From the NCBI GenBank assembly GCA_025361625.1, contig JANYKL010000084.1, forward strand, positions 1 to 35,429: a DNA stretch of 35,429 nucleotides, written 5' to 3'. The position numbers and the translations under genes are program-made. Shown here one piece after another: positions 18,072 to 34,891 of this stretch. How positions within the stretch are numbered: position 1 is the stretch's first letter; every line of letters begins with the position of its first letter. Source of the stretch: Acidobacteriaceae bacterium (lineage in GTDB: Bacteria; Acidobacteriota; Terriglobia; Terriglobales; Acidobacteriaceae). Under the pieces are notes generated by a model. That model saw only the letters and a program-made list of their open reading frames with translations. It was not told the DNA's origin and ran no database searches.

Positions 18072-18506
18072 TTACGACGGCAGTTTGCCTCCCCATCCCC
18101 ATCCGGCTTGCAGACTGGTTCGAATGACTCCGAGCAGTTCTTCGTTATCGGCGGGCTTTTGAAAGAAGGCCACGGCGCCCAATCCTAACGTCCGCGTCTC
18201 GTTGCCTTCAGGGTCGCGTGCCGTTAGAACTATGACCGGGATATTGGCTAACGCAGGAAGTTGCTGCAAGTTCTTGAGCACAGCAAACCCGTCGCCAGCG
18301 GGCAATCCAAGGTCGAGAATGATGAGTTGGGGCTTCTCTTTCTGAGCAAGTGCGATCGCGGAATAGCCATCACATGCATTGATAGCGTCGAAGTTGTTGG
18401 CTCGCAAACGCAGGGTCAGCGCTTGCCTGAGATCAGGGTCGTCGTCCACCACCATGATCTTGGCTCGATTTACAGTTGGCGTTTGGCCGTTGCTCTCAGC
18501 TCGCAT
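18072..18506 (-). CDS. Single-domain response regulator
   Basis: 144 aa, one receiver domain and no output domain. The acidic pocket is Asp21-Asp22-Asp23 (VVDDDPDL), the phosphoacceptor is Asp65 (LIILDLGLP), the conserved Thr lies in VIVLTARD and the Lys in FFQKPAD. A short glycine/tryptophan-rich tail follows. It overlaps the end of the kinase-half gene by 11 bases and is last in the two-component cluster, so it is the likely receiver of phosphate from that kinase. It may act by protein-protein contact, like CheY. Confidence 0.93.
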   Translation of the reverse strand: MRAESNGQTPTVNRAKIMVVDDDPDLRQALTLRLRANNFDAINACDGYSAIALAQKEKPQLIILDLGLPAGDGFAVLKNLQQLPALANIPVIVLTARDPEGNETRTLGLGAVAFFQKPADNEELLGVIRTSLQAGWGWGGKLPS

Positions 18507-19581
18507 TGATAGTCATCTCTTTCTCGTTCGGTTTTGTCCAAAGTCCTTGTTGAATAACTTCGGTGACGTAGTCAGCTACGCCCCACACTTGTTGTTCGAG
18601 CGTCCTCGCATCCATGGCGGGTGCTGGTGGTATCGATTCGGCCATCACCCGCATCGTGCCGCTTGCCTTCAACTGTGGCAGGTTTCCAACCTGCTCTCGA
18701 ATGCGATCCATCAGAGCCGTGACCCTGGCCATGTCAGTCGAAGCGAGCACAAAAAACGTTTGCGCAAGGCCGCTGTTTCCGGTTGGCGGCAGCACCAGAT
18801 CTTTGTCGACAAAGATGCAGCGCCGAAGGATTTCCAGACTTTGCTGGCAAGTTTCCCGCCAGCTGCCGCGAAGCGATTGATTTCGCGGAGTAAGTTCCAC
18901 TCGCAGCAGAACCATTTCCGTCCGAAGTCGCCCCTGGTAAGTGATGATCGGGAACAATAACTTCGTCAAAGAGTACAAAGGAAGCGTGAAAGAGAAAGTG
19001 CTTCCGCTGCCTGTTTCACTCGCAACCCAGATTCTGCCGCCCTGAAGGACGACAATCTCTTTTGCGATAAATAACCCGAGTCCCAATCCGGAGCGATTGC
19101 CGTCGATTGCGTCCGGGTCCTGGTAGAGCCGCTCGAAGATTTGTGGAACCGACCCTTGTGGAATTCCGCGTCCTGTATCGTTCACCGAAAGGTAAACCGA
19201 ACTTGGATCGGTCTCGACAAGCGATGCCTTGACCTGAATGGTTCCCGCCGCCGGGGTGAACTTGATGGCGTTGTCGATCAGGTTGATGAAGACCTCCAAG
19301 GTACGGTCCGGGTCGGCAAAGACCAGCGGAATCGCCGGATCGACACTGACATCGATGGATACACGCTTCTCGGCGGCCGTCGGCTTCATCATGGCAACCG
19401 CCTGCCGCATCAATTCACCGATATCGATGCAGCGCGGTTCAACGCGCAGCTTCCCACTATCGGCCCGGGTTGCCTCGAGCAAGTCTCGAATCATTGCGTG
19501 AAGCTGGTTCACGCTCTTGAGCACAATTTTCAAGTGGTCCATCTGCTCGGGAGAGACTGGTCCGGAGAGGCCATCCAGCAT
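18496..19581 (-). CDS. Histidine kinase, ATPase half of a frameshifted REC-HisKA-HATPase protein
   Basis: 361 aa. It starts inside the dimerisation domain just after the H-box: LDGLSGPVSPEQMDHLKIV and LHAMIRDLLEATRADSGKL form the second HisKA helix. The HATPase follows with N-box INLIDNAIKFTP, G1 VNDTGRGIP and G2 SGLGLGLFIAKEIV. An unusual C-terminal extension of about 150 residues without a recognised domain follows the kinase core. The ATG at 19581 is only five bases beyond the TAA that ends the upstream frame, so termination-reinitiation could still give a two-piece kinase. Without the H-box this half cannot autophosphorylate on its own. Alternatively one intact gene is broken by a small indel or a base-calling error. 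Confidence 0.8.
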   Translation of the reverse strand: MLDGLSGPVSPEQMDHLKIVLKSVNQLHAMIRDLLEATRADSGKLRVEPRCIDIGELMRQAVAMMKPTAAEKRVSIDVSVDPAIPLVFADPDRTLEVFINLIDNAIKFTPAAGTIQVKASLVETDPSSVYLSVNDTGRGIPQGSVPQIFERLYQDPDAIDGNRSGLGLGLFIAKEIVVLQGGRIWVASETGSGSTFSFTLPLYSLTKLLFPIITYQGRLRTEMVLLRVELTPRNQSLRGSWRETCQQSLEILRRCIFVDKDLVLPPTGNSGLAQTFFVLASTDMARVTALMDRIREQVGNLPQLKASGTMRVMAESIPPAPAMDARTLEQQVWGVADYVTEVIQQGLWTKPNEKEMTINAS

Positions 19582-19586
19582 CAGCG

Positions 19587-20075
19587 TTACGTACAGGTGA
19601 GCGGTGTGCGGAGTTCGTGGGAAACGTGCGAAAGAAACTGGTTCTTGAACTCCAGTTGCTGTTTGCGTGTGATTTCGAGCGAGCGCAAGAGGCCTTGACG
19701 CTCAACGGCGTATCGCAAGGCGCGCTCTAACTGCTTGCTCGTAACGTCGCTCTTCACGAGATAATCCTGCACTCCCTGATGGACGGCCCGGCTGGCCAGC
19801 GCCTCGTCGTCTTGACCGGACAAGATGACAATTGGAACGTTCGGCGCCTTCTGCAGAATCTTCCGAAAAGTATCCGCTCCGTGGCTGTCGGGCAGATTCA
19901 GATCTAATAGCACCAGCGCGGGAGTATCTAAAGCGAGACAAGCCAGAGCATCGGAGAGCCGCGGAACACAGTTGATCTGAACAGCGCTTTTCGATTCCAC
20001 CAGCCGGAGACGCACCAGGTCTGCGTCACCTGGATTGTCTTCGATTAGAAGAATATGGGCAGGTTCCTCTACCAT
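19587..20075 (-). CDS. Receiver domain plus histidine kinase H-box, N-terminal half of the frameshifted kinase
   Basis: 162 aa from the ATG at 20075, which overlaps the previous response regulator gene by seven bases; the longer frame to 20180 was rejected because it runs through that gene. The receiver has Glu12-Asp13 (LLIEDNPGD), phosphoacceptor Asp58 (LVLLDLNLP) and VIVLSGQDD. After a coiled linker (QLERALRYAVERQGLLRSLE) comes SHVSHELRTPLTC with phosphoacceptor His153; two residues later the frame ends at TAA. The expected continuation (an IYVTLMLDGL-like segment) is in another frame immediately downstream, so the break is a net one-base shift (or equivalent) in the middle of HisKA. Confidence 0.8.
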   Translation of the reverse strand: MVEEPAHILLIEDNPGDADLVRLRLVESKSAVQINCVPRLSDALACLALDTPALVLLDLNLPDSHGADTFRKILQKAPNVPIVILSGQDDEALASRAVHQGVQDYLVKSDVTSKQLERALRYAVERQGLLRSLEITRKQQLEFKNQFLSHVSHELRTPLTCT

Positions 20076-20512
20076 TGTTTTCCCTCTTGTGGCAGGCTGG
20101 CTGAGCCTAACCAAAATTCTTCGATCGATTTCACTGTCTGGAAATATTCCCCCAAATTGACTGGCTTGCTGACGTAACAATTCGCCCCCAGCTCGTAACT
20201 CCGCACAATCTCCGTTATCGAGCGCGAGGTGCTGAAGACGATAATCGGAATCGACCGCAGCTTCGCGTCCGCCTTGATCTCCGCCAAAACGGCACGCCCG
20301 TCCTTTTTTGGCAAGTTCAAGTCGAGAATCATAAGGTCGGGACGAGGTGCATTCGCGTATGGGCCCGTCCGATTCACATACGCTATCGCCTGCTTGCCGT
20401 CGGCGACACTGTTGATGCAGCCCTTAGATTGCCCTCCAGTCAAAGCTTCCTGCATCAAGACCACGTCGGCCGGGTTGTCATCCACCAGAAGAATGTTGGG
20501 CAAGGAATTCAC
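20069..20512 (-). CDS. Response regulator of the Rcp1 (phytochrome-partner) type
   Basis: 147 aa. The start is GTG at 20512, or possibly the TTG two codons later. Acidic pocket LLVDDNPADV (Asp11-Asp12), phosphoacceptor Asp64 in LMILDLNLPKKDG, then IPIIVFSTS and CYVSKPVNLGEYF. The sequence ANAPRPDL before the phosphoacceptor and the tail FQTVKSIEEFWL are typical of Rcp1-like regulators that pair with phytochromes or other bacterial hybrid kinases. It is the first gene of the cluster, followed by the kinase with a seven-base overlap. No photoreceptor gene is in the window. Confidence 0.93.
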   Translation of the reverse strand: MNSLPNILLVDDNPADVVLMQEALTGGQSKGCINSVADGKQAIAYVNRTGPYANAPRPDLMILDLNLPKKDGRAVLAEIKADAKLRSIPIIVFSTSRSITEIVRSYELGANCYVSKPVNLGEYFQTVKSIEEFWLGSASLPQEGKQW

Positions 20513-22386: not shown

Positions 22387-23070
22387 TCATGGTGTGTTGA
22401 GAAGCACCGTAATTGTCCCCACAAGAGGATCGAGAATCGCCAAGTCCGGGGTGCCGTTCCCATCAAGGTCTGCTGCCAGCAAGGCGTGAAGCCCAAAGGA
22501 TCCCGGGGTGAAGTAGAAAGACGGCACTCCAAATTTTCCACTGCCCTTGCCCGGCAATATCGCAACGCCACCGGTAGGAATGGTCATCGCCAAATCTGCA
22601 TTGCCGTCAGCATTGAAATCGACTGCCACTACGCCGTCGGGACCATCTGCTTGACCCAGATTGATTCCAGTATTCAGAGCAGTGGCCAAGGTACCGTCCC
22701 CATTTCCGAGGAAAATCCTGGCTAGCATCCCCGTTGGGGCGGGTGATACCTCGGCCAGATCAAGCTTGCCGTCGTTGTTGAAATCACCCGTTGCGAGCCT
22801 CCCCCCTGGTCGTGCCCGATAGAACAGTGCTGGCTGGAAAGTGCCGTCTCCATTCCCCAACATGATGCCAATACCTTGTGGGACCAGGATCGCTAGATCC
22901 GATTTTCCATCGTTATTGAAGTCTCCCGCGAGAAGCGTCTCGATTCCCGACGGTAAACTTAGACCGGTTCGAAATGTCCCATCGCCGTTTCCTAGCAAAA
23001 CCTGCCCGGGGCTGCCATTCGCAGCGATGTCAGGGATGCCGTCATGGTTGAAGTCGGCAAGCACGAGCAC
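22387..23070 (-). pseudogene. FG-GAP/VCBS repeat protein, C-terminal part after the frameshift
   Basis: 227 aa as an isolated frame beginning at a GTG (23070). It carries about five beta-propeller-type repeats with the calcium-binding core DFNxDGxxDLA or DFNNDGKSDLA, and LGNGDGTF linkers. The upstream frame reads ...SPTRARACRLQP and stops within 30 bases, while this frame would continue the repeat as SPT-VLVLADFNHDG. Removing one base, for example from the CCC at about 23071-23073, joins them. The piece has no start signal or signal peptide of its own, so I treat it as the 3' part of one gene. Confidence 0.75.
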
Positions 23071-24478
23071 GGGTTGGTGATGCCGCCGAGTAGCTTACCG
23101 GCAGTTGCAACTTGGTGCCTCCTAGCCCAAGGCGCACGTTGATAGAATCTTCGCTGGCCGTTACAACATCAATCTTGCCATCGTGATTCAAGTCGGCCGT
23201 AGCGACGAAACGACTTTGCCTGCCCCCAGTAAGCCCAGCTACTTCAGAGCCAAAAGTTCCGTCACCCTTTCCAATTAGCCGGACCAACTCTCCTGCGACA
23301 CCATTGGTGAAAGTCCCGCAGACCGCCAAGTCCGGTTTGCCGTCTCCATTGAAATCCGCCGCGGTCATGGAAGCCGGAAAATCATCATTTAGATATAGAA
23401 CGCTATAAACGTGCGGAGCAACAAACGTTCCATTCGGCTGAGCAAAGGCAACGCTGATGCCAGGGCTTCGAACGACCCCGAAGATCACATCAGACCTACC
23501 GTCTCGGTTCACGTCGGCCAAGAGAGCAACCTGCCCAAACCCGTACCGCACAGAAGGCCGAAATGTCCCGTTACCGGCGTTTAACAAGATAGTACCGTCT
23601 GATAAAAAAAGGTCTGGCTTGCCGTCGCCATTGAAATCGGCAACCAGCAACTTTGTTGCAGTTTCTCCTGCTTTGTAGGTGACGCCGGACTGGAACGTGG
23701 CATCGCCATTGCCAAAGAAAACCGTCACTCCGTTACCGTCCAGGAGAGCAACGTCCAACTTTCCATCTCCGTTGAAGTCTGCAATCGCGGGGCAGCCCCC
23801 GGGGCCTGGCAAAGATGTTTGAGCCTGGAAGGTGCCGTTTCCGTTTCCCAGAAAGATGCCATTGCCAACAAGATCGAGCTTCCCATCACCGTTGATGTCA
23901 ACCAACTGGCACGGCAAACCAGGCACTGAAGACTGCAGTGCTTGAAAAGTACCGTTACCGTTTCCGAGATAAACCTGTATTGTTTCGGGCGGGAAATCTA
24001 GCACCACCACGAGGTCTAACTTGCCGTCTCCATTTACATCTCCAACCATGAGTGATTGTGGCGGAGCTGCTAAAGGGAGATTAAAAACCGGGCCAAATGT
24101 TCCGTCTCCATTTCCCGGGGCAACGCTAATGAACGGGGTTGGCGGACCATACGAGAGGAAAGCAACATCCAACTTGTGATCGCCATTAAAATCGCCAACG
24201 ACCGCTGGACCTTGGAAGAGGTGAGTGGGGGCAGATGAAATGGGAGCGCGGAAACCATTCGATCCGTTGCCTAAAGCTACAGTGATTGAGCAAGAATCAG
24301 CGTCACATGGTGCGAAACTCAGTAGATCGACTTTGCCATCCCCGTTGAAATCTCCCGCAACAAAAGGAAATGGCGCCCGGTAGGAAGGAAAGGTTGGAAA
24401 ACCCTTCGCAGGCAGGCGGGCCGAGACAAGTAAGCAGATGACAAAAGCACAACACTTTAGCTGACACGACCCTTGCAT
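23042..24478 (-). CDS. Secreted FG-GAP/VCBS repeat protein, N-terminal part
   Basis: 478 aa; with the downstream frame the original protein would be about 700 aa. The ATG at 24478 has GGAGGA upstream and begins a signal peptide (CCAFVICLLVSARLPAKG). About nine repeats follow, each with DFNGDGKxDL or DVNGDGKLDL (Asp-rich calcium loop as in integrin alpha and VCBS proteins) and LGNGNGTFQ linkers. Such proteins are exported and probably bind surface or extracellular ligands; no catalytic domain is seen. The reading frame ends early at 23042 because of a one-base shift. The repeats are nearly identical in DNA, which favours slippage or assembly error. Confidence 0.82.
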   Translation of the reverse strand: MQGSCQLKCCAFVICLLVSARLPAKGFPTFPSYRAPFPFVAGDFNGDGKVDLLSFAPCDADSCSITVALGNGSNGFRAPISSAPTHLFQGPAVVGDFNGDHKLDVAFLSYGPPTPFISVAPGNGDGTFGPVFNLPLAAPPQSLMVGDVNGDGKLDLVVVLDFPPETIQVYLGNGNGTFQALQSSVPGLPCQLVDINGDGKLDLVGNGIFLGNGNGTFQAQTSLPGPGGCPAIADFNGDGKLDVALLDGNGVTVFFGNGDATFQSGVTYKAGETATKLLVADFNGDGKPDLFLSDGTILLNAGNGTFRPSVRYGFGQVALLADVNRDGRSDVIFGVVRSPGISVAFAQPNGTFVAPHVYSVLYLNDDFPASMTAADFNGDGKPDLAVCGTFTNGVAGELVRLIGKGDGTFGSEVAGLTGGRQSRFVATADLNHDGKIDVVTASEDSINVRLGLGGTKLQLPVSYSAASPTRARACRLQP

Positions 24479-24653: not shown

Positions 24654-24683
24654 TTGACAGTCGCTCCAGAACGAAAGTAAAAG
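24654..24683 (+). promoter_or_regulatory. Promoter of the TonB-dependent receptor gene, shared element
   Basis: TTGACA at 24654-24659, 18 bases, then TAAAAG at 24678-24683, about 73 bases before the ATG. From 24673 it reads GAAAGTAAAAGTA followed by AGCATTCGTAA; the same 13-mer, with nearly the same flank, lies behind a TTGACA on the minus strand at 31320-31361. Confidence 0.65.
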
Positions 24684-24756
24684 TAAGCATTCGTAACAAG
24701 GCGCCTAGGGTCCATCATCGGCGTCCGCTTCATTGTCGATTCGAAGGAGCTTCCTC

Positions 24757-27700
24757 ATGAGGATCTTAAATTCCGGACGTGTTTTTGCCGCGACTGTATT
24801 CCTCCTTAGCATCATTCTTAGTGGACCCGCTTGGGCCCAGAAAGATACCGGCAGCATCGTCGGGACGGTTAAAGACCCCAGCGGCGCCGTTGTGGCGAAC
24901 GCCAAAATTTCCGTTACCGATATTGAACGGGATCAAACCTTTACCACAAGCACCGATAGCAATGGCGAGTATGTTGCAAGTCCGCTTCGGGTGGGCAAAT
25001 ATACCGTAACAGCGGAACTAGGAGGCTTCAAAAAAGCATTCTCTACATCTGTCGATCTCGATGTGCAACAGCGCATAGCCATTAACATAACTTTGCAAGT
25101 CGGACAGATCAATGAGAGCGTCGAGGTGTCTGGAGCCGCTGCCCTGCTGGAGACCGAGACTTCCGAGCTTGGGCAGGTAGTGGATAGCCGCCAGGCCTCT
25201 AATCTTCCTTTAAACGGCCGCAACTTTGCGCAGCTTGCATTGCTAAGCACCGGGACCGCCCCAAGCGAACCCGGTGCTCGGGACGAGAAAAGCTTCGGAT
25301 TCAGCGCAGGAGGCGCCCGTTCACTGCAAAACAATTTTCTGCTCGATGGGGTGGATAATAATTCCAATCTCCCAGACTTGCTGAATGAAACTAACTTTGT
25401 CATTCAGCCCCCGATCGATGCTTTACAAGAATTTAAAGTTCAGAGCAATGCATACAGCGCAGAGTTCGGGCGCGGAAATGGCGCAATTATTAATGCAGTC
25501 ATTAAGTCTGGGAAAAATACGGTGCACGGATCTCTGTGGGAGTTTTTGCGAAATGACAAGCTGGACGCTCGCAACTATTTCGACGATCCTACGAAACCAA
25601 CGCCGCCTTACAAGCAAAACCAGTTCGGCGGAACTATAGGGGGGCCGGTATATCTTCCGCACATTTACGATGGGCGAAATCGCACATTTTTCTTCGCCGA
25701 TTATGAAGGTCTTCGCATTCGGCAGGCACAAACTCAGAGTGCGTTTATTCCGAGCCTTGCGTGGCGCCAGGGAGATTTCTCCAACTTAATTGATTACACG
25801 TCGACGACCGGAGTTGATTGCAACGGCGTGGCCACTTACGCGGGTGAGATTTTTGACGCCCGGCTGGCTCAGGCCAACTGTGGTGTTCCTTTCCAATACA
25901 ATTCTGCTGGCCAGCCGCTGAACATCATTCCTACAGCTCCGGTCACCGCAGGAGGTGGCTTTCTTGACCCGTTGGCGCTGCGCCTCGCCGCCCTTTATCC
26001 ACTCCCAAACGTCGCGAATAATCCCAGCATCAACTACCTTGCAAACCCAGTACTTAAGGAATCACGGTCTAATTTCGACGTTCGAGTAGACCAAAAGTTC
26101 TCCGATCGTGATAACAGTTTTTTCCGTTTTAGTTTTGAGAACCAACCGAGCAGTATTCCCGGAACCTTTAACGGTCTCGCCGATGGGGGCGGATTTTTTA
26201 GCGGCATTGAGGACAATTCTTATCGAAGTTTCGCCACGAGTTGGACCCACCTCTTCACTCCGCGAGTTATCAATGAGATTCGTTTGGGCTACAACCGGAT
26301 AAATTCGCATCGTTTTCAGCTCAATGCGGATACCGATGTTTCAGGTCAGATCGGGTTCCCAGGCGTGCCTTTTGTGGCGGGAATTGGCGGCTTGCCGCAA
26401 CTCACCTTCAATGATGTCTCCACCCTTGGCAGCCCGACGTATTTGCCTTCCAAGGAATTACAGAACTCTTACACACTTTCTGAAAATCTGACGTGGGTAA
26501 AAGGCCGTGGCACTTGGAAATACGGCACGGAAATTCGTAGAGAAGAATTCACGATTTTTCAGCCAGCCTCTCCTCGTGGAAACCTGGGCTTTGACAGCAC
26601 TTTGACTGATAACCCTGCAGTTCCGGGCACTGGCGGTACGGGTTTCGCATCTTTCATGGCGGGACTCACGAATGGCGGCGGAATTAATAATTTGCATAAT
26701 GTTGACTATTTCCGTACAACCTATGCATTTTACGGGCAGGATGATTGGAAGATCACTCCATCATTGATGCTGAACCTCGGACTGCGTTATGAAGTGTTTC
26801 TGCCGGTGACGGAGCGCCACGATCAGCTAGGTACTTTTGATCTTACAAATCCAAGCACGCCGACGATCATTGTGCCCAAAGGCCAGAATGCGCAGTTAAC
26901 GCCTACCATAGCTTCGGAAGTGCAAATCAGCCGCACTGGCAGCAGAGGTCTAGTAAATAAGGATCTGAACAATTTCGCTCCACGCATCGGTTTAGCCTAT
27001 CAATTTCAGGAGCACACAGTGTTGCGAACTGGGTACGGAATATTCTATGGAGGCCAGGAGAACGGCCCTTATTCGAATCCCAGCCCGGGATTTAATCCAC
27101 CTTTCTTCGTAACGCAATCGTTCACTACTCCCTGCGGCGCATCCAGTGCAAACCTGAGCCCTGGGCAATTGAACTGTTCTGTACAGCAGATCCCGTTTCT
27201 GGCGAATGGATTTCCAACTAACTCGCTCACTGATCCCAACTCGCCCCTTTTCTTTTCGGTTGATCAACATCTACGCACGCCTTATATGCAGCAGTGGCAT
27301 CTCTCTATCGAGCGTCAATTGCGCGGAGATGGGGTATTTGAGATTACTTACGCTGGCTCCAAAGGCACGAAGCTGTATACGTTTTTCAACGGCAACCAGG
27401 CCCTGCCCAGCCCGGATCCGAATGCGCCAACTGCGCCTCGACGACCGGTGCCGTTGATTGATGCATCAATCGACCGGTTTCGTTCGACCGGAGCGTCCAG
27501 TTATAACTCGCTACAGGCACACTATGAAAAGCGCTTTTCCCATGGATTGCAATTTCTCGCGTCCTACACGTGGGCGCACTCGATTGACAATGCTTCCAAT
27601 GCCAACCTGGGCCCTACGCAGAACAATAGCGACTTCCGTGACTTCAGGCATCCGGAGCGAGAGTTCGGCAGCTCTGATTTCGACATAAGGCATCGTTTTG

Positions 27701-28260
27701 TCACCAGCTTTCTTTACGAGCTACCCTTCGGACACGGAAAGGCCTTTGTTGGCAATGCAAGCGGCGCTCTGGATCAGATTGTCGGGGGTTGGCAAATCGC
27801 GTCGATATTTACCTTATCGACGGGAAACTACTTTACGGTGCTCGATAGCAATGCAAATTTCTCGAACTCTGACGGCGGGGCTGGTGGCGCGTCTCAACGT
27901 CCGGACCAGGTCGGCGACCCTCACGGCCATCCATGCATACCGGGAACATTTTTTAATACATGCGCCTATGCGGACCCCGCCGAAGGCTCGTTCGGAAACG
28001 TAGGACGAAACACCGTCGAGGGTCCAGGCTATAAGACATGGGACTTCTCGCTGTTCAAGAATTTCAACGCGGGCGAGAGGGCACGTGTGGAGTTCCGGGC
28101 GGAATTCTTCAACGTCCTGAACCATACGAACTTTCTGTTTTCCAAAACGGGTCCCCAGAATTCGAATAATTCAACGATATTAGGGACCCCCCAGTTTGGA
28201 TTTTTAACGGCAGCCCGCGATCCGAGGCAAATTCAGTTTGCCTTGAAGTTGTCGTTCTAG
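24757..28260 (+). CDS. TonB-dependent outer membrane receptor with N-terminal carboxypeptidase-regulatory-like domain
   Basis: 1167 aa from the ATG at 24757, preceded by AAGGAG at about eight bases. Signal peptide RILNSGRVFAATVFLLSII with cleavage near PAWAQ. Residues about 30-110 form a Cna B/carboxypeptidase-regulatory fold (GSIVGTVKDPSGAVV, SNGEYVASPLRVGKYTV). A plug domain follows with LPLNGRNFAQLALLSTG and NNFLLDGVDNN. The rest is a large beta-barrel with alternating aromatic segments, ending in the typical terminal Phe (FALKLSF). This is the acidobacterial Oar-like type, without an adjacent SusD. It probably takes up a large nutrient, perhaps an oligosaccharide, given the glycosidases nearby. 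The promoter element is shared with the GH2 side. Confidence 0.95.
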   Translation: MRILNSGRVFAATVFLLSIILSGPAWAQKDTGSIVGTVKDPSGAVVANAKISVTDIERDQTFTTSTDSNGEYVASPLRVGKYTVTAELGGFKKAFSTSVDLDVQQRIAINITLQVGQINESVEVSGAAALLETETSELGQVVDSRQASNLPLNGRNFAQLALLSTGTAPSEPGARDEKSFGFSAGGARSLQNNFLLDGVDNNSNLPDLLNETNFVIQPPIDALQEFKVQSNAYSAEFGRGNGAIINAVIKSGKNTVHGSLWEFLRNDKLDARNYFDDPTKPTPPYKQNQFGGTIGGPVYLPHIYDGRNRTFFFADYEGLRIRQAQTQSAFIPSLAWRQGDFSNLIDYTSTTGVDCNGVATYAGEIFDARLAQANCGVPFQYNSAGQPLNIIPTAPVTAGGGFLDPLALRLAALYPLPNVANNPSINYLANPVLKESRSNFDVRVDQKFSDRDNSFFRFSFENQPSSIPGTFNGLADGGGFFSGIEDNSYRSFATSWTHLFTPRVINEIRLGYNRINSHRFQLNADTDVSGQIGFPGVPFVAGIGGLPQLTFNDVSTLGSPTYLPSKELQNSYTLSENLTWVKGRGTWKYGTEIRREEFTIFQPASPRGNLGFDSTLTDNPAVPGTGGTGFASFMAGLTNGGGINNLHNVDYFRTTYAFYGQDDWKITPSLMLNLGLRYEVFLPVTERHDQLGTFDLTNPSTPTIIVPKGQNAQLTPTIASEVQISRTGSRGLVNKDLNNFAPRIGLAYQFQEHTVLRTGYGIFYGGQENGPYSNPSPGFNPPFFVTQSFTTPCGASSANLSPGQLNCSVQQIPFLANGFPTNSLTDPNSPLFFSVDQHLRTPYMQQWHLSIERQLRGDGVFEITYAGSKGTKLYTFFNGNQALPSPDPNAPTAPRRPVPLIDASIDRFRSTGASSYNSLQAHYEKRFSHGLQFLASYTWAHSIDNASNANLGPTQNNSDFRDFRHPEREFGSSDFDIRHRFVTSFLYELPFGHGKAFVGNASGALDQIVGGWQIASIFTLSTGNYFTVLDSNANFSNSDGGAGGASQRPDQVGDPHGHPCIPGTFFNTCAYADPAEGSFGNVGRNTVEGPGYKTWDFSLFKNFNAGERARVEFRAEFFNVLNHTNFLFSKTGPQNSNNSTILGTPQFGFLTAARDPRQIQFALKLSF

Positions 28261-28321
28261 CGAACAGTCTAGGGACCGACTCGTCGTTATGCTCGGTAAT
28301 CCGTTGTTAGGCCTGAGTGGC

Positions 28322-31051
28322 CTATTGGGGTGCGATTTCAACCGGGAATACGCTGCTTTCGGTGTTGAACCCCTCAACTCGCAAGTGAGGGCGTTGGCCA
28401 TGAAGCAATGATCTTTCGAACTTTGCGGTGATAATCCGCTGTTCGTGGGGAAACACAGTTACATAGTTATCGTCGTAAGTTATGGGAAGGATCTCTTCTC
28501 CATCTCTTCCTTTGGTAAGTTCAGCCCGAACAAAGAAAGCCACGTGGTCGGAATTGTTCCTCAACGTAATGGAGGCAAGGCCCTTCTCGTTTTTCGATTC
28601 TAAATTCGCACTCACGTCCACACTAGCTTTTGGCATTGTGTTCAGTGCTGACATGTCCGCCCAGTTCGCGAGATCGGTTTTGAACTGCTCGTCCTTCTTA
28701 GGACCGCCAAGATCGTCATCGGTTGCGGACGCCCAATACACATTGTCACTCAACATCTTGTTGTTCTGATCCCGCAGTTGACAGCGCACGAAGTAAGTCG
28801 GGTCGAGGTCCATAATCCGCCCCACAGTCATGGCTTCCGCAGATGTTTGAGCTTCTATATTGAAGGCATTCACTTCTTTAAAAAACTTTTTCGTGCCGTC
28901 GAGATTGTAGAAGGTAACCGACACTTTGAGCTTCTGATGCGGCTCCAGAGTTTGGTTCGCGACGTAAACTTTGGCCGAACTGCGATCCCCGGTCGCATAA
29001 TAGTCCCAGATCACCGTCAAAGGTTGCAGCGCCTTCTTCGCACCGAAATATCCGCCTCCTTGTTTATAGTAATAATCGAAAAGGTGGCCGAACAAAGACG
29101 GCCACGGGTTATTCATCATCCAGTGAATCGTCATCTTGCGGTTGCTCCAGTGCGTGGCATATGTCTCGTACTGGGCGCGCACGTCTTCGTAGTGGGCGAG
29201 TTGGGCCTTCTTGGAAAATTCTGCTGCGCTATTGGACGACCCGTAGCGGCGATTCAGCACTCTTTGGACGCTCTCCAGAGTACTGTTTCCTTCATTCGCG
29301 CCGGAGTGAAAAAACCAATATTCATTGATGGGCCAGAGTTTGTCGGCGGGAATAAATTTTTTGAGACTCTCCAGCGGCGGAATAGTCTCGTTGTCCCCTT
29401 CTTCCGCCGAGGAACCACGTGCCGGGCCGTACTTATCACTGAACCAATAATAAGGAGGGCGCCATACGTATGGTCCGGCCATATGGATTCCGCTCGAAGA
29501 GCGATTGACGTGAGAGACGGTATCCACAACTGCATTCTGCCAATGCGATTCCCGAATGATTTGATGATAGTCACCAAGCACCGGGTCGGGAGGCAGCCCG
29601 TCACTCCCGTTTGCCCATATAACGACGGATGGATGCGAACGAAGCTCGCGCAGTCGAGCACGAAGGCTCGCGCGAGCGACCCACTGGTCTTCAGCACTCC
29701 ACTGGTCCCAGTGTTCCCATTGCGCGCAACACATCCAGCCCAACATCACCGGCATTCCCTCCCGGTCAGCCCGCTCAATCATGGTGTCGTCAGCAACCTT
29801 CAGTTCCCACCGAAGCAGGTTAAGACCCAGATCCTTGGCGTACTGCATCGTCGAAGCGTCGCGCGCCGGATCGCTGCGAAACAGCAGGTCTGGAGCGTAT
29901 ACGCCTCCGCGAATCAAATAATCTCGCCCATTAATCTGCAAGTAAAAATTGCCGACGTTTCCCAAATCAGAGAATACTTTGTCAGCATCGTGTTGTTGCG
30001 TGACCTTTCGAATTCCAAAGTTTGTTGACTGTGAATCGGAGGACTTGCCATCAATTGTGAAATCCAATTTCAACTGGTAGAGATTCGCCTTGCCCCACAA
30101 ATAGGGCCACCAGAGATCGGGATCGGCAACGACTAGGGTGGGAAAATCCGCCGGAGTGATGGTGATCTCTCGGGTCTCGTTGCGGAAAAGGGAAACAGAT
30201 TTGTGAAATTTTATAGTTGGCTTGCCCTCCCGCGAGATCTGACCTGAAATCGTGCCGATTACCGGTCTCGATGAATTATTGCTCACATCACAGTACACCG
30301 TCAGGGACGCAGGGCTGGTAGCCGGCAGTGGGAGGTCAGTTGCGACGTAGGGATGGCGAATGCTCACAGCGCCGGTGCTGCTCAGGTATACCCGCTTCCA
30401 TATTCCGGCGTTTCGGTCTGGGACGAACGAAATGTCCACATGTTTTTCAACATCTTGATAGCCGAGATATTTCCAATTAATCCAGTCCAGCCAACTGTCG
30501 CCTAACTCAACACCGTGTTCACCGGTGAGAGCGCGTTCCGGAGTAATTTTCACGGCCAAAACGTTCTCGCCAGGATGAATGACTTCCGTGACGTTCAATT
30601 CGAACCGGTCGTACATACCAACAATTTGTGAATTGTTGGCAATCTTGTGCCCATTAACCCACAAGTCTGCCCGGTAATTGATCCCTTCAAAAATAAGCGA
30701 GTAAACTTCGTGTCCGGCGGGCGCTGTAAAAGTGGTGCGGTACCACCAGTCTTGCTTCCAGAGATCGCCAGGTTTCGCTAGGTTCATTCCGAAATAAAGC
30801 TCTGGATAAACCCCGTTGTCTTCCAAGACCTGCAGCACGGTGGCCGGCATGCGTTGAATCGGGTACCACTTGGAAGTGTCATAACCGGGCTGCGATGGTG
30901 CCAAGTCATCGGTGACAGCGCTGGCCGAAGTCATTTGCCAGCCACGGTTGATCTCAACAATGTTGGGGGACTCGGCAGCGTTTGCGGGCATGACGAGAAA
31001 CGCCACTTTTAAAAAGAACCATAAGAAGATTAACGGCCGAATAAGTCTCAT
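28322..31051 (-). CDS. Secreted glycoside hydrolase family 2, exo-beta-D-glucosaminidase-like
   Basis: 909 aa from the ATG at 31051, which opens a signal peptide (MRLIRPLIFLWFFLK, cleavage near ANAAES); an in-frame ATG at 31102 is less likely. Domain order: jelly-roll sugar-binding domain (YRADLWVNGHKIANN), immunoglobulin-like domain, TIM barrel (FYLQINGRDYLIRGGVYAPD, LLRWELKVADD), then C-terminal beta domains. Candidate acid/base is Asp484 in WANGSDGLPPDP and candidate nucleophile Glu550 in SSAEEGDNETIPP, matching the GSD and (T/A)E...IPP pattern I associate with exo-beta-D-glucosaminidases of GH2. Beta-mannosidase is the main alternative. It would remove terminal glucosamine in the periplasm or outside. 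Confidence 0.85.
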   Translation of the reverse strand: MRLIRPLIFLWFFLKVAFLVMPANAAESPNIVEINRGWQMTSASAVTDDLAPSQPGYDTSKWYPIQRMPATVLQVLEDNGVYPELYFGMNLAKPGDLWKQDWWYRTTFTAPAGHEVYSLIFEGINYRADLWVNGHKIANNSQIVGMYDRFELNVTEVIHPGENVLAVKITPERALTGEHGVELGDSWLDWINWKYLGYQDVEKHVDISFVPDRNAGIWKRVYLSSTGAVSIRHPYVATDLPLPATSPASLTVYCDVSNNSSRPVIGTISGQISREGKPTIKFHKSVSLFRNETREITITPADFPTLVVADPDLWWPYLWGKANLYQLKLDFTIDGKSSDSQSTNFGIRKVTQQHDADKVFSDLGNVGNFYLQINGRDYLIRGGVYAPDLLFRSDPARDASTMQYAKDLGLNLLRWELKVADDTMIERADREGMPVMLGWMCCAQWEHWDQWSAEDQWVARASLRARLRELRSHPSVVIWANGSDGLPPDPVLGDYHQIIRESHWQNAVVDTVSHVNRSSSGIHMAGPYVWRPPYYWFSDKYGPARGSSAEEGDNETIPPLESLKKFIPADKLWPINEYWFFHSGANEGNSTLESVQRVLNRRYGSSNSAAEFSKKAQLAHYEDVRAQYETYATHWSNRKMTIHWMMNNPWPSLFGHLFDYYYKQGGGYFGAKKALQPLTVIWDYYATGDRSSAKVYVANQTLEPHQKLKVSVTFYNLDGTKKFFKEVNAFNIEAQTSAEAMTVGRIMDLDPTYFVRCQLRDQNNKMLSDNVYWASATDDDLGGPKKDEQFKTDLANWADMSALNTMPKASVDVSANLESKNEKGLASITLRNNSDHVAFFVRAELTKGRDGEEILPITYDDNYVTVFPHEQRIITAKFERSLLHGQRPHLRVEGFNTESSVFPVEIAPQ

Positions 31052-31319
31052 CTTGTGCAGCCCTCTGGAGCGCTTCGATTTTGTGAGTCCATCAATCAGC
31101 ACCGGTAGCGTCTCAATTGGCGATACTCGATACCGCGAGCCGCTTCTCTGAGGTCAAAGCTATTCCGGCGGATTAAAACTGTTTTTACATTCGGAAAGTT
31201 GGGTTTGGACATGACGGAACGTGGTTTCCCTTCCCGTCCTATAGCAAAAGCGGTGAAACCTGCCGGAAGCTCCGGTACTTGCGCCGCTCCGGTGAGGCTT
31301 TTCCCTCTGTTTCGCTTCC
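31052..31319 (-). other. Long leader between the shared promoter element and the GH2 start
   Basis: About 270 bases with no recognised gene. The ribosome site GAGGG lies about ten bases before the GH2 start. It contains several short dyads but no clear riboswitch or terminator. If the shared element is the GH2 promoter, the mRNA has an unusually long 5' leader. Confidence 0.4.
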
Positions 31320-31361
31320 TTGCGTATGCATACTTTTACTTTCTGATCGAAACCCTGTCAA
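31320..31361 (-). promoter_or_regulatory. Promoter or operator in the GH2/deoR intergenic region, copy of the TonB receptor element
   Basis: On the minus strand TTGACA (31356-31361), 17 bases, TAAAAG (31333-31338), with GAAAGTAAAAGTA at 31331-31343 and then TGCATACGCAA. It matches the receptor promoter at 24654-24697 in 13 consecutive bases and most of the flank. Within it GTATGCATAC (31324-31333) is a perfect palindrome. It points towards the GH2 gene and lies about 130 bases before deoR, so it could also mediate autoregulation. Confidence 0.6.
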
Positions 31362-31488: not shown

Positions 31489-32250
31489 GTGTTAAATGAA
31501 GAACGCCGAAGGGCTATTCTTGAAACTCTGAGCCGGGATGGCCGCGTCCTGGTCGGCGACCTTGCGAAAGAATTCGACACCTCTCAGGTGACGATTCGTA
31601 AAGACCTCGATATTTTGCAGGCGCATGGAAGAATTCACAGGACGCACGGAGGCGCACTCCCCATGCAGCAAGGTGCGCTGGAAGATCCCACCTTGCTGGA
31701 GAAAGAGAAACTCCACCGCAGAATCAAGCAAAAGATCGCCATGGCTGCCGCTCGCATGGTGAAAGAAGGTCAGGTGCTTATTCTGGACTCTGGCACTACT
31801 ACCACTGCCATAGCACGTTCTCTTCGACACTTTCAAAATCTTACGATCATTACTAATGCGGTGAATATCGCAGTGGAGTTATCTGGTACTTCTATCGAAG
31901 TCATTTTGACGGGCGGTACATTGCGAAAAAACTCTTTCTCGCTGGTAGGACCAATCGCAGAGGAAACGTTGCAGCGTCTCAATGCCGACATTCTATTTCT
32001 GGGAGTGGATGGCTTCGATGTCCATCACGGTCTTAGTACTCCAAACGTGCTGGAAGCGAAAGTAAACCAGGCGATGATGGAAAGTTCGAAGCAGACCGTT
32101 GCGGTATGCGATTCCACTAAATTCGGACGGCGTAGCTTATCTCTGATTGCGCCTCCATCCGCAATTCAAGCCGTAATTACTGATCGCGATGCTCCTAAAG
32201 CGGACTTAAATATTTTAAAGAAGTCCGGGATTGAAGTAACTCTGGTTTAG
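31489..32250 (+). CDS. DeoR-family transcriptional regulator (AgaR/GlpR-like)
   Basis: 253 aa from a GTG at 31489. The N-terminal winged helix-turn-helix is complete: ERRRAILETLSRDGRVLVGDL, recognition helix TSQVTIRKDLDIL (31-43) and wing GRIHRTHGGAL. The effector domain has the family motifs LILDSGTTTTAIA, TIITNAVNIA, LTGGTLRKNSFSLVGP and FLGVDGFDVHHGLSTPN, ending with VCDSTKFGRRSL. Family members respond to sugar phosphates such as N-acetylgalactosamine or tagatose derivatives. Placed between two secreted glycosidases, it probably controls the locus. A CTGGTTT/AAACCAG dyad (32242-32272) overlaps its stop codon. Confidence 0.95.
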   Translation: MLNEERRRAILETLSRDGRVLVGDLAKEFDTSQVTIRKDLDILQAHGRIHRTHGGALPMQQGALEDPTLLEKEKLHRRIKQKIAMAAARMVKEGQVLILDSGTTTTAIARSLRHFQNLTIITNAVNIAVELSGTSIEVILTGGTLRKNSFSLVGPIAEETLQRLNADILFLGVDGFDVHHGLSTPNVLEAKVNQAMMESSKQTVAVCDSTKFGRRSLSLIAPPSAIQAVITDRDAPKADLNILKKSGIEVTLV

Positions 32251-32404: not shown

Positions 32405-34891
32405 TCATTGTTTCTCCTGATAACGTTTCTTGGTCGAAGGCGCGAAGCGAGTGTTCACCTCCCCGGTTACTTTGATGGATACTGATTTTTCAAAGGGCAA
32501 TCCATCAAGACCTTCCGCAAGCAAGTGCGTTGTGAACTGACCTGCATGGGTATATGCGTGGTTTACCACGGCGGCGTCGGCCACGGTCCCATCGCCAAAA
32601 TCCCAGTGATATTTCACCACCGGTACCCCGGCCCGATCTGTCTCTGCGGAGAATTGAGTTGCCTTACCGACTTCGATCTCTTCTGCACCGTGCAGAGTTA
32701 CTGTGGGCGCCGCCCTCACGATGGACGTATCAACGATCTTCAGCACCTTCACGGAATGCGGTGGTAACTGGAACGCGAGTGTATCCAGGTTTTCGCGCGC
32801 GACATCAGAACCGAACACGTCCAGTACCTGGGTATGGCCGTGTAAGGGTAATCCTAAGGTGCCCGCCAGATCGAAGCTGTGTTCGGTTGGTTTCTCCGTC
32901 CAGTTGAAAACTGTCAAAATTGCCTGGCGCTTGCTCTCTTTCAAGAGGAAGATGCTGGGCATGCCGTCTTGCTGCGTGTAGCTCATCAGATCAAGTGGCA
33001 CGGATGCCCGGCCCAGACGCGACATGTTCAGAAGGTCTTGATTTTTCACCAGAGCTACTCGGTCCGGATCGGCGCCCAGGGTGGGTAGATCATCTCCAAT
33101 TTCGTACATTCCTCCGGCGATGGCGGCCAAAGCAATGGAAACTTTGGCTTCGTCGAGCGTGAGCGGACGCTTGCCCCCATGCCACTCCTGCTCGGAGACG
33201 ATTTGCCGCGAAACTGTAAAAGCATCGGGGTCAGAGACATAGAAATTGCGATTCATGTAGTATCGGGCAGCAATGCCCGGAGCCGCTTCCCTGCTGGCCT
33301 CGAACGTATGACCGGTATCGACCGAAGTACGGCCGGTGTCGACAATGCCTACTGGATTTAGCATCGGGCTGCCGTCTTTATCGAGTAGAACGTTATCGCC
33401 AACGGTGTCGCGAATCACCTGCAAGCCGATGCGTTGTGCCTCGAGAGCGGTCGTATTCGGCCTGTAGTAAATGCCCTCAATTGCGGTGTCATCCATAAAA
33501 TCCAGCTTGATGTAGCGGAAACCCCATTCCCGTGTCAGAGACGTATAAGTTTTCCGAAGATAATCTTGGGCGCCGGGTTGAGTGCAGTCGAGAACATAAA
33601 GCGCATCTAGTGGGGGATCCTCTCCAATGACCCAGCCTGCGTGTATCGGCTGCCCGGCGGCATTGTGCACCAGCCAGTCCTTGTGGTTCTCGTATACCCA
33701 GGATCGCTCGGAGACTTCGAAGGGAGCAGTCCACACTCCTGGGACGAGGCCAAGCGCGCGAATCTTGCCTGCCACAGCGTTCATACCGTTTGGGAACAGG
33801 TTGGCGTCGGGGGTCGCATACTCGCCGCGAGCATACTGATACCCCTCATCAATGTGGAAGAAGTTAAAGCCGATACTTTTCAGGTTCTCCGCAAGCCAGT
33901 TCGCGTTGGTCAAAGCAGTATCCTGGTTCAAGCCGAAGTAATAGGCCGTCCAACTCCACCAGCCCGCAAAGCTCGGCGCATTTACGCGAGCGTGGTGCAG
34001 CTCGCGAATAAGGCCACCGTAGGTTGCCAATTGCTGGTGATAGTCGGTTCCAGTGCTGATCAACAACCGTTCAGAAGAGAGTTCCGCTCCGGGCGCAACC
34101 GGCAAGCTCAATTCGATCTGGTCTTCGGGTGAGGATTTCTCGAGTGAATTCTCTTTTTCGAGCTCGGTCGTGCCGGTCGAATCGACTTCGTACGAAGCAA
34201 TGTGGTCGCTATTCATGTGGAGGCGGAGGATCGTAAGAAATTTGTTGGAGGTGAGCGCACCCAGAAAAAGACTCCGCTTCGAGTCACGGTTATAAATTAA
34301 CTGGCTGCCAACGGCGCGATGGATTCCATTCTTAGCGTCAGCGAGATCGTGAATGGTGATGCCAGGGCGGTCTTCACTAAAGCTATCGGAGAGCACGCGA
34401 TCAGAGGCATCAGCCGCACCGAGGCTGACGCCGACAGGAGCGACCGTCTCCACGGTGCGGAGCGTTTGAACCTCAACCGCCTTCGAACCACTATTTCGAA
34501 CTGTGGCGGTTATAGATGCGAAATCAGGATTGCCATGCAGTTCAAGGAAATAGACGAGATCGGGTTTTCCCGCAAGCCCGCTGTTAAAAACGGTGATTTT
34601 AACGGGTGATCCAGGCTCAACCGAGACGGAGTGTCGCGGATAATCACCGGACTTTACCCAACGATGATCAACTTCCGCCGCTACCAGGGAATGCAAAATC
34701 GGCTTTTTCGAAACTGGTTCGAAGATTGTGTAACTCCCGTCGGCACGGTCAACTGAAATGCCAATCGTATTTACCTGCGCGGTTTCGCGTGAACCCTTTC
34801 CAGTTGCGGTCTTCTGCCCGAACAGAACTCCCGGCAGCAGCAAAAAAAAGCAGACTGGCCGGAAAAACTTGCAATTGCCTTCCATTGACAT
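32405..34891 (-). CDS. Secreted GH36-type alpha-galactosidase with C-terminal PKD domain
   Basis: 828 aa. The ATG at 34891 has GAGG about nine bases upstream and opens a signal peptide (FFRPVCFFLLLPGVLFGQ). Residues about 40-300 form the beta-sandwich domain of clan GH-D enzymes, followed by the TIM barrel. FHIDEGYQ and YIKLDFMDD give the nucleophile Asp464; RTSVD in VDTGRTSVDTGHTF gives candidate acid/base Asp525. An all-beta domain follows, then a PKD domain at about 730-810 with the typical YHWDFGDGTV. Alpha-galactosidase is the likely activity; alpha-N-acetylgalactosaminidase is possible in this clan. PKD domains often help secreted enzymes hold polymers. It is convergent with deoR and has no copy of the shared element that I could find. 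Confidence 0.87.
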   Translation of the reverse strand: MSMEGNCKFFRPVCFFLLLPGVLFGQKTATGKGSRETAQVNTIGISVDRADGSYTIFEPVSKKPILHSLVAAEVDHRWVKSGDYPRHSVSVEPGSPVKITVFNSGLAGKPDLVYFLELHGNPDFASITATVRNSGSKAVEVQTLRTVETVAPVGVSLGAADASDRVLSDSFSEDRPGITIHDLADAKNGIHRAVGSQLIYNRDSKRSLFLGALTSNKFLTILRLHMNSDHIASYEVDSTGTTELEKENSLEKSSPEDQIELSLPVAPGAELSSERLLISTGTDYHQQLATYGGLIRELHHARVNAPSFAGWWSWTAYYFGLNQDTALTNANWLAENLKSIGFNFFHIDEGYQYARGEYATPDANLFPNGMNAVAGKIRALGLVPGVWTAPFEVSERSWVYENHKDWLVHNAAGQPIHAGWVIGEDPPLDALYVLDCTQPGAQDYLRKTYTSLTREWGFRYIKLDFMDDTAIEGIYYRPNTTALEAQRIGLQVIRDTVGDNVLLDKDGSPMLNPVGIVDTGRTSVDTGHTFEASREAAPGIAARYYMNRNFYVSDPDAFTVSRQIVSEQEWHGGKRPLTLDEAKVSIALAAIAGGMYEIGDDLPTLGADPDRVALVKNQDLLNMSRLGRASVPLDLMSYTQQDGMPSIFLLKESKRQAILTVFNWTEKPTEHSFDLAGTLGLPLHGHTQVLDVFGSDVARENLDTLAFQLPPHSVKVLKIVDTSIVRAAPTVTLHGAEEIEVGKATQFSAETDRAGVPVVKYHWDFGDGTVADAAVVNHAYTHAGQFTTHLLAEGLDGLPFEKSVSIKVTGEVNTRFAPSTKKRYQEKQ

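Follow-up and report, generated by a model that had tools for sequence, protein, structure and literature searches.

In the polysaccharide-utilization loci of Bacteroidota, a receptor and secreted glycosidases stand under one sugar-responsive control, which is of the hybrid two-component, SusR or ECF kind. In E. coli, AgaR binds several tandem repeats, according to a section of PMC5018945 that cites Leyn 2012; a section of PMC4694137 terms the AgaR sites palindromes and the ligand unclear. Here, we describe an element that occurs twice in a 35,429-nucleotide stretch of acidobacterial DNA (the window, by which we mean the whole stretch analysed). Each copy is most likely a promoter with a built-in AgaR-type operator, through which a repressor encoded at 31489-32250 would jointly control a TonB-dependent receptor, a GH2 enzyme and further genes on another contig, C12. 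For such an acidobacterial promoter-operator, no counterpart was found in the open-licence literature. The features of the window that matter to the argument are the following.

24654..24659, + strand: TTGACA, -35-like hexamer of copy 1 (from the sequence; TTGAC lies 12 or 13 bases ahead of GAAAG in 51 of 55 distinct sites)
24672..24697, + strand: predicted operator copy 1, CGAAAGTAAAAGT...CGTAAC, two repeat units with a 20-base step (from matrix and comparison)
24678..24683, + strand: TAAAAG, putative -10-like hexamer of copy 1, within the operator (from the sequence)
24757..28260, + strand: TonB-dependent receptor with a carboxypeptidase-regulatory domain and an OMP_b-brl_4 barrel (PF25183, 3e-251; PF13620); proposed target of copy 1
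28322..31051, - strand: GH2 enzyme with an exo-beta-D-glucosaminidase-type Ig domain (PF18368, PF22666, PF00703; ATG placed by eye); proposed target of copy 2
31319..31344, - strand: predicted operator copy 2, AGAAAGTAAAAGT...CGCAAG (from matrix and comparison)
31333..31338, - strand: TAAAAG, putative -10-like hexamer of copy 2 (from the sequence)
31356..31361, - strand: TTGACA, -35-like hexamer of copy 2 (from the sequence)
31489..32250, + strand: DeoR-family regulator, AgaR by NCBIfam (PF00455, PF08220; NF040755); proposed repressor of both promoters
32405..34891, - strand: melibiase-like glycosidase with a PKD domain (PF02065, PF18911); neighbour

A first-pass annotation had described two copies starting with TTGACAG, at 24654 (+) and 31361 (-), that have a 13-mer and a W-GCAT-W-CG block in common, and both are present as described. 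In each, the identical 13-mer GAAAGTAAAAGTA runs into W-GCAT-W-CG and then Y-AA. The blocks, at 24673-24693 (+) and 31323-31343 (-), match GAAAGTAAAAGTAWGCATWCG with 0 mismatches, and none of 100 dinucleotide-shuffled windows held two or more matches to this pattern, even with up to three mismatches allowed. The same annotation had noted a conserved distance from TTGACA. Counted from the last base of TTGACA, GAAAG follows after 13 bases in copy 1 and 12 in copy 2; the 17 or 18 bases that it gave for the distance belong instead to TAAAAG, which follows TTGACA after 18 bases in copy 1 and 17 in copy 2. The natural reading of these hexamers is a -35 and a -10 element. Judged against the sigma-70 consensus, TTGACA is perfect, TAAAAG has four of the six bases of TATAAT and makes a poor -10, and the spacings of 18 and 17 fall within the range of 16-18 that we allowed. 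Copy 1 ends about 60 bases upstream of the receptor ATG (24757), and copy 2 about 268 bases upstream of the likely GH2 ATG (31051, a start placed by eye). Scored with a matrix built from other genomes only, the two copies reach 43.5 and 23.7, and nowhere else in the window does the score exceed 7.9. The window scan gave no strong site for the melibiase-like gene at 32405..34891, near whose start the matrix score is 5.2.

Two features further upstream were seen by eye. At 22387-24478 (-), just 5′ of the receptor, a protein with DFNGDGKxD-type repeats is spread over two overlapping frames. At 18496-20180 (-), a response-regulator frame stops at HELRTPLT and the next frame resembles the remaining part of a histidine kinase; this may be one interrupted hybrid kinase gene.

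The product of the regulator gene has a DeoR-type helix-turn-helix (PF08220) and a DeoRC sensor domain (PF00455), and it scores 269.1 bits against the NCBIfam model for AgaR (NF040755), above the cut-off of 260. The same model accepts all five orthologs tested (261.9-287.2), hence six of six with the window protein, and rejects both paralogs tested (195.4 and 199.7); E. coli AgaR itself scores 465.3.

We then have to ask how the element is distributed in the genome of origin, an assembly of 3,828,529 bases in 196 contigs that is 95.69% complete. Finding the block at many unrelated genes had been named in the first-pass annotation as an outcome that would speak against a common control signal. 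The scan of the whole genome gave a different picture: the 13-mer GAAAGTAAAAGTA occurs just three times, and its reversed control not at all. The third copy (C12:29137) has TTGACA 13 bases ahead and lies upstream of a 718-aa melibiase-like gene. Nearby, on the opposite strand, a fourth and weaker site (C12:27793-27818, -) has TTGACA 12 bases ahead and precedes a second receptor. On the 3′ side of this receptor are a SIS protein of the AgaS family (269 bits, below the model cut-off of 529.2) and a 670-aa protein (L209 10239-12251, -) with a GHL10 match just below cut-off, homologues of which accompany the element at 11 of 47 loci; the GHL10-like protein is likely a further enzyme of the regulon. 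Since the C12 sites precede a melibiase-like gene and a receptor that is followed by an AgaS-family gene, the element is associated with thematically related genes on two contigs. We did not count two other places, C20:13187 (score 18.7, without TTGACA) and C177:10956, among the sites. Looser patterns add little. With two mismatches allowed, AAAGTAAAAGTAWGCA gave four matches in this genome versus seven in the control, which is weak evidence; a composite pattern at the wrong spacing (14-26 bases after TTGACA, a range close to the first-pass figure, the right spacing being 12-13) gave none in the genome and one in the control.

Among 61 genomes of the genus and its relatives, the exact 13-mer is found in 17 and the reversed control in nine. 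TTGACA lies at 12 or 13 bases in 17 of the 20 places with the 13-mer (it is absent at L019, L020 and L023), and it is this hexamer that separates real from chance matches. Of the 23 further genomes in the genus, 13 have a copy linked to TTGACA, as does one genome from another genus of the family. A pattern with three mismatches matched in 19 of 24 genus genomes, versus nine for the control, and is weak evidence. In a sample of 299 genomes of the class, a pattern with two mismatches matched 16 places in 15 genomes, and the control matched in nine, which again is weak evidence. Whole genomes were searched by patterns with at most three mismatches. A scan of species genomes for TTGACA-N12/13-13-mer returned 40 stretches; because TTGACA was part of this search pattern, its spacing there is not independent evidence. 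Acidobacterial titles belong to 31 of the stretches, each scoring at least 25 with a matrix in which the second unit is included, and at least 14 of these 31, which show the same site and flanks, come from genomes that the earlier searches had covered. The other nine carry non-acidobacterial titles: L095 and L115 score at least 25 and L132 scores 24.97, all three without the second CG unit, and the remaining six fall below 24.97 at the site.

From these searches we assembled 55 distinct sites with a score of at least 25, a set that includes the non-acidobacterial L095 and L115 and three sites that lack TTGAC (L077, L278 and L283); the cut-off of 25, like the ortholog threshold of E<=1e-90 used below, was set after seeing the data. 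TTGAC precedes GAAAG by 13 bases in 38 sites, by 12 in 13 and by 11 in one. If the first base of GAAAG is numbered 0, the core at positions 0-12 is conserved in 48-55 of the 55 sites, in part because it was used to find them. Past the core, C19 and G20 are each kept in 54, A22 in 55, A23 in 53 and C29, a position outside the matrix, in 46. Because C19/G20 and C29 are conserved, repeat units start at about -1, 19 and 29, with steps of 20 and 10 bases that place them on one helix face. Positions 14-18 are variable over the 55 sites; the palindrome GTATGCATAC of copy 2, considered as an operator core, was discarded on that account.

The gene behind the 55 sites encodes a receptor in 37 cases, a melibiase-like enzyme in four, GH2 and beta-helix proteins in two each and an AgaS-family protein in one, with an unlabelled frame in four and no gene within the stretch in five. 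Two further acidobacterial records, L126 and L122, have a site followed by a GH2 homologue (66-70%), immediately in the former and after a receptor in the latter, so that both target types of the window recur. Three loci hold two opposite-facing sites (L071, 9512 and 10653; L074, 9854 and 10822; L278, 9582 and 9920). In L071 and L074 the pair flanks the regulator gene, and the regulator may there control two promoters around itself.

Which regulator, then, acts at these sites? For 47 loci, we clustered the 386 predicted proteins encoded no more than 8 kb from a site, and 12 clusters were present in at least four loci. Receptors are found in 41 loci, melibiase-like proteins in 34 (and a second kind in five), the AgaR-type regulator in 20, SIS/AgaS proteins in 19, amidohydrolases in 16, PfkB in 15, GHL10-like proteins in 11, GH2 and GatZ/KbaZ-type (KbaZ) proteins in seven each, beta-helix proteins in five and a last cluster, without a Pfam match, in five. 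In the genus, eight of the 13 genomes with a linked 13-mer encode the ortholog on that contig, no more than 8 kb away. In the class, an ortholog at E<=1e-90 is present in eight of the ten genomes with a site scoring at least 25, versus 66 of 299 overall (p 1.2e-4), or in seven of nine when the genome of origin is excluded (p 4.4e-4), and in five of these eight genomes site and ortholog are on one contig within 8 kb.

A comparison of orthologs with paralogs points the same way. A site scoring at least 25 was found at 14 of 30 ortholog loci versus one of 20 paralog loci (Fisher p 0.0014), with a matrix trained partly on sites from ortholog loci; the counts include a split ortholog (G019:C446, in L230, no site) and a paralog at a contig end (G019:C70). 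Leaving out these two gives 14 of 29 versus none of 19 (p 1.6e-4). Three fragments (G008:C1, G019:C372 and G016:C10:803973) were placed in neither set. With the exact 13-mer and TTGACA alone, the counts are nine of 30 versus one of 20 (p 0.03). Two of the loci deserve mention in their own right. In L063 (13675-14243, G013:C42), an AgaR ortholog is in two pieces and a strong site is retained 3.8 kb away. In L206 (9406-12980, G000:C124), a regulator paralog (32%) adjoins a 50% homologue of the melibiase-like enzyme and has no such site; this is perhaps a parallel regulator-glycosidase pair with a different operator.

Thus, the earlier proposal of a common control signal, read as an operator of the local DeoR-family regulator, gains comparative support from the clustering of sites with orthologs rather than paralogs, from the receptor and glycosidase targets, and from a CGAAAG unit common to the AgaR regions of E. 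coli. It is also conceivable that a different regulator of the same genes binds the element, and that the AgaR-type protein is nearby because it serves the same pathway. Three observations fit this idea: 16 of the 30 ortholog loci have no strong site in the fetched stretch (some of these genomes have one on another contig, others have weak variants or none), two genomes of the class (G216 and G189) have a site scoring at least 25 and no ortholog at E<=1e-90, and a strong site is found 9.7 kb from the paralog G019:C70 (30%). We nonetheless consider it unlikely. The AgaR-type protein is the sole regulator among the 12 recurring clusters, a count that covers genes within 8 kb and that a regulator encoded elsewhere would escape; the two unlabelled clusters are the GHL10-like one and the one without a Pfam match. 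Moreover, the CGAAAG unit recurs in the AgaR regions of E. coli, and two of the four sites in the genome of origin are within 7 kb of its one ortholog.

The first-pass annotation had offered a second possibility, namely that the element is a class-wide, or constitutive, promoter of acidobacterial TonB receptors that answers to no specific repressor. That 37 of the 55 sites precede receptor genes is in keeping with it. Yet a site is present at only two of 30 receptor loci fetched from the genome of origin, those of the window and of C12 (the loci were chosen by the barrel family PF25183, with 45 matches listed, and some fetch the same gene twice). A promoter found before most receptor genes is therefore not what these counts describe, and in the class the two-mismatch match is confined to 15 of 299 genomes. 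The element also stands before glycosidase, beta-helix and AgaS-family genes, and its conservation extends beyond the -10 to C19, G20 and C29, which a plain promoter would not need. We regard this possibility as very improbable. Recent duplication or a mobile repeat, which would make the copies alike by descent rather than function, is suggested by near-identical blocks 6.6 kb apart in one genome and can be set aside almost entirely, since by eye the flanks differ and the likeness stops at the edges of the element, and since the core recurs with its spacing across many genomes of relatives, upstream of different genes.

Binding by the local AgaR-type repressor, with joint switching of an outer-membrane receptor and of secreted enzymes as the expected consequence, is thus the most likely reading. 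From the observed sites, their conservation and spacing, the genes downstream and the link to the regulator's orthologs, we infer binding, repression, inducer and glycan along the following lines. TTGACA would serve as the -35 and TAAAAG, 17 or 18 bases on, as a weak -10. The tandem units, CGAAAG, CGYAAK 20 bases on and, after another 10 bases, often a third one that begins with C, would form an array that reaches from within the spacer to beyond the -10. Seated on these units along one helix face, the DeoR-family repressor encoded at 31489-32250 could exclude RNA polymerase. Its release would be caused by an amino sugar, probably one of the galactosamine type in phosphorylated form, and would turn on the receptor (24757-28260) and the GH2 enzyme (28322-31051) together. 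The same release would turn on the melibiase-like glycosidase of C12 and the second receptor there, with the AgaS-family gene in the same run.

As to the substrate, the SIS/AgaS, PfkB and GatZ/KbaZ proteins near the sites of relatives, taken with the melibiase-like and GH2 enzymes, suggest glycans of galactosamine or N-acetylgalactosamine. KbaZ was not found in the genome of origin, and the sugar is therefore a guess of moderate strength. This matters because the cargo of the roughly 30 TonB-type receptor loci in that genome is not apparent from their sequence. A recognizable operator ties given receptors to given glycosidases and to one sugar pathway, and so yields a substrate guess that can be tested, for receptors to which none could otherwise be assigned. 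The wider proposal, that an AgaR-type site fused to a -35 forms a fixed cassette before receptors, glycosidases and an isomerase in several genera, and that a regulon for galactosamine-glycan uptake can be read from it, seems to us slightly better than an even bet.

Finally, we compare this arrangement with the described systems. The window regulator is 40% identical to E. coli AgaR over 251 aa and falls in the same NCBIfam equivalog. In E. coli K-12, CGAAAG occurs four times in the 248 bases between agaR and kbaZ and three times in the 350 bases between agaA and agaS, whereas a stretch of 50,000 bases from elsewhere contains 27; the unit is thus 30 and 16 times as dense in the two regions. 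Repeated CGAAAG-type units in control DNA, a trait we looked for in an AgaR regulon, are thus found in the columns of the 55 sites and in the E. coli enrichment. Of the 12 best matrix places in 15 kb of E. coli, some of them overlapping, nine are inside the 598 aga intergenic bases. The full matrix does not single out both regions: for agaA-agaS, none of 142 background windows is as good; agaR-kbaZ is not exceptional, with 12 of 201 background windows scoring as high. As in the E. coli aga cluster, AgaS-, PfkB- and KbaZ-type proteins are encoded near the sites of acidobacterial relatives. There are also differences. PTS genes accompany the aga genes of E. coli, whereas none appeared among the proteins scanned here, in a scan not aimed at PTS. 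The targets here are mainly TonB-type receptors and glycosidases, which are not seen in the aga cluster of E. coli. Here, one compact site lies 12-13 bases after TTGACA; in E. coli, several repeats are spread out, with another order and spacing of units. Compared with the polysaccharide-utilization loci of Bacteroidota and their modes of control, the arrangement described here would instead employ a repressor of the DeoR family.
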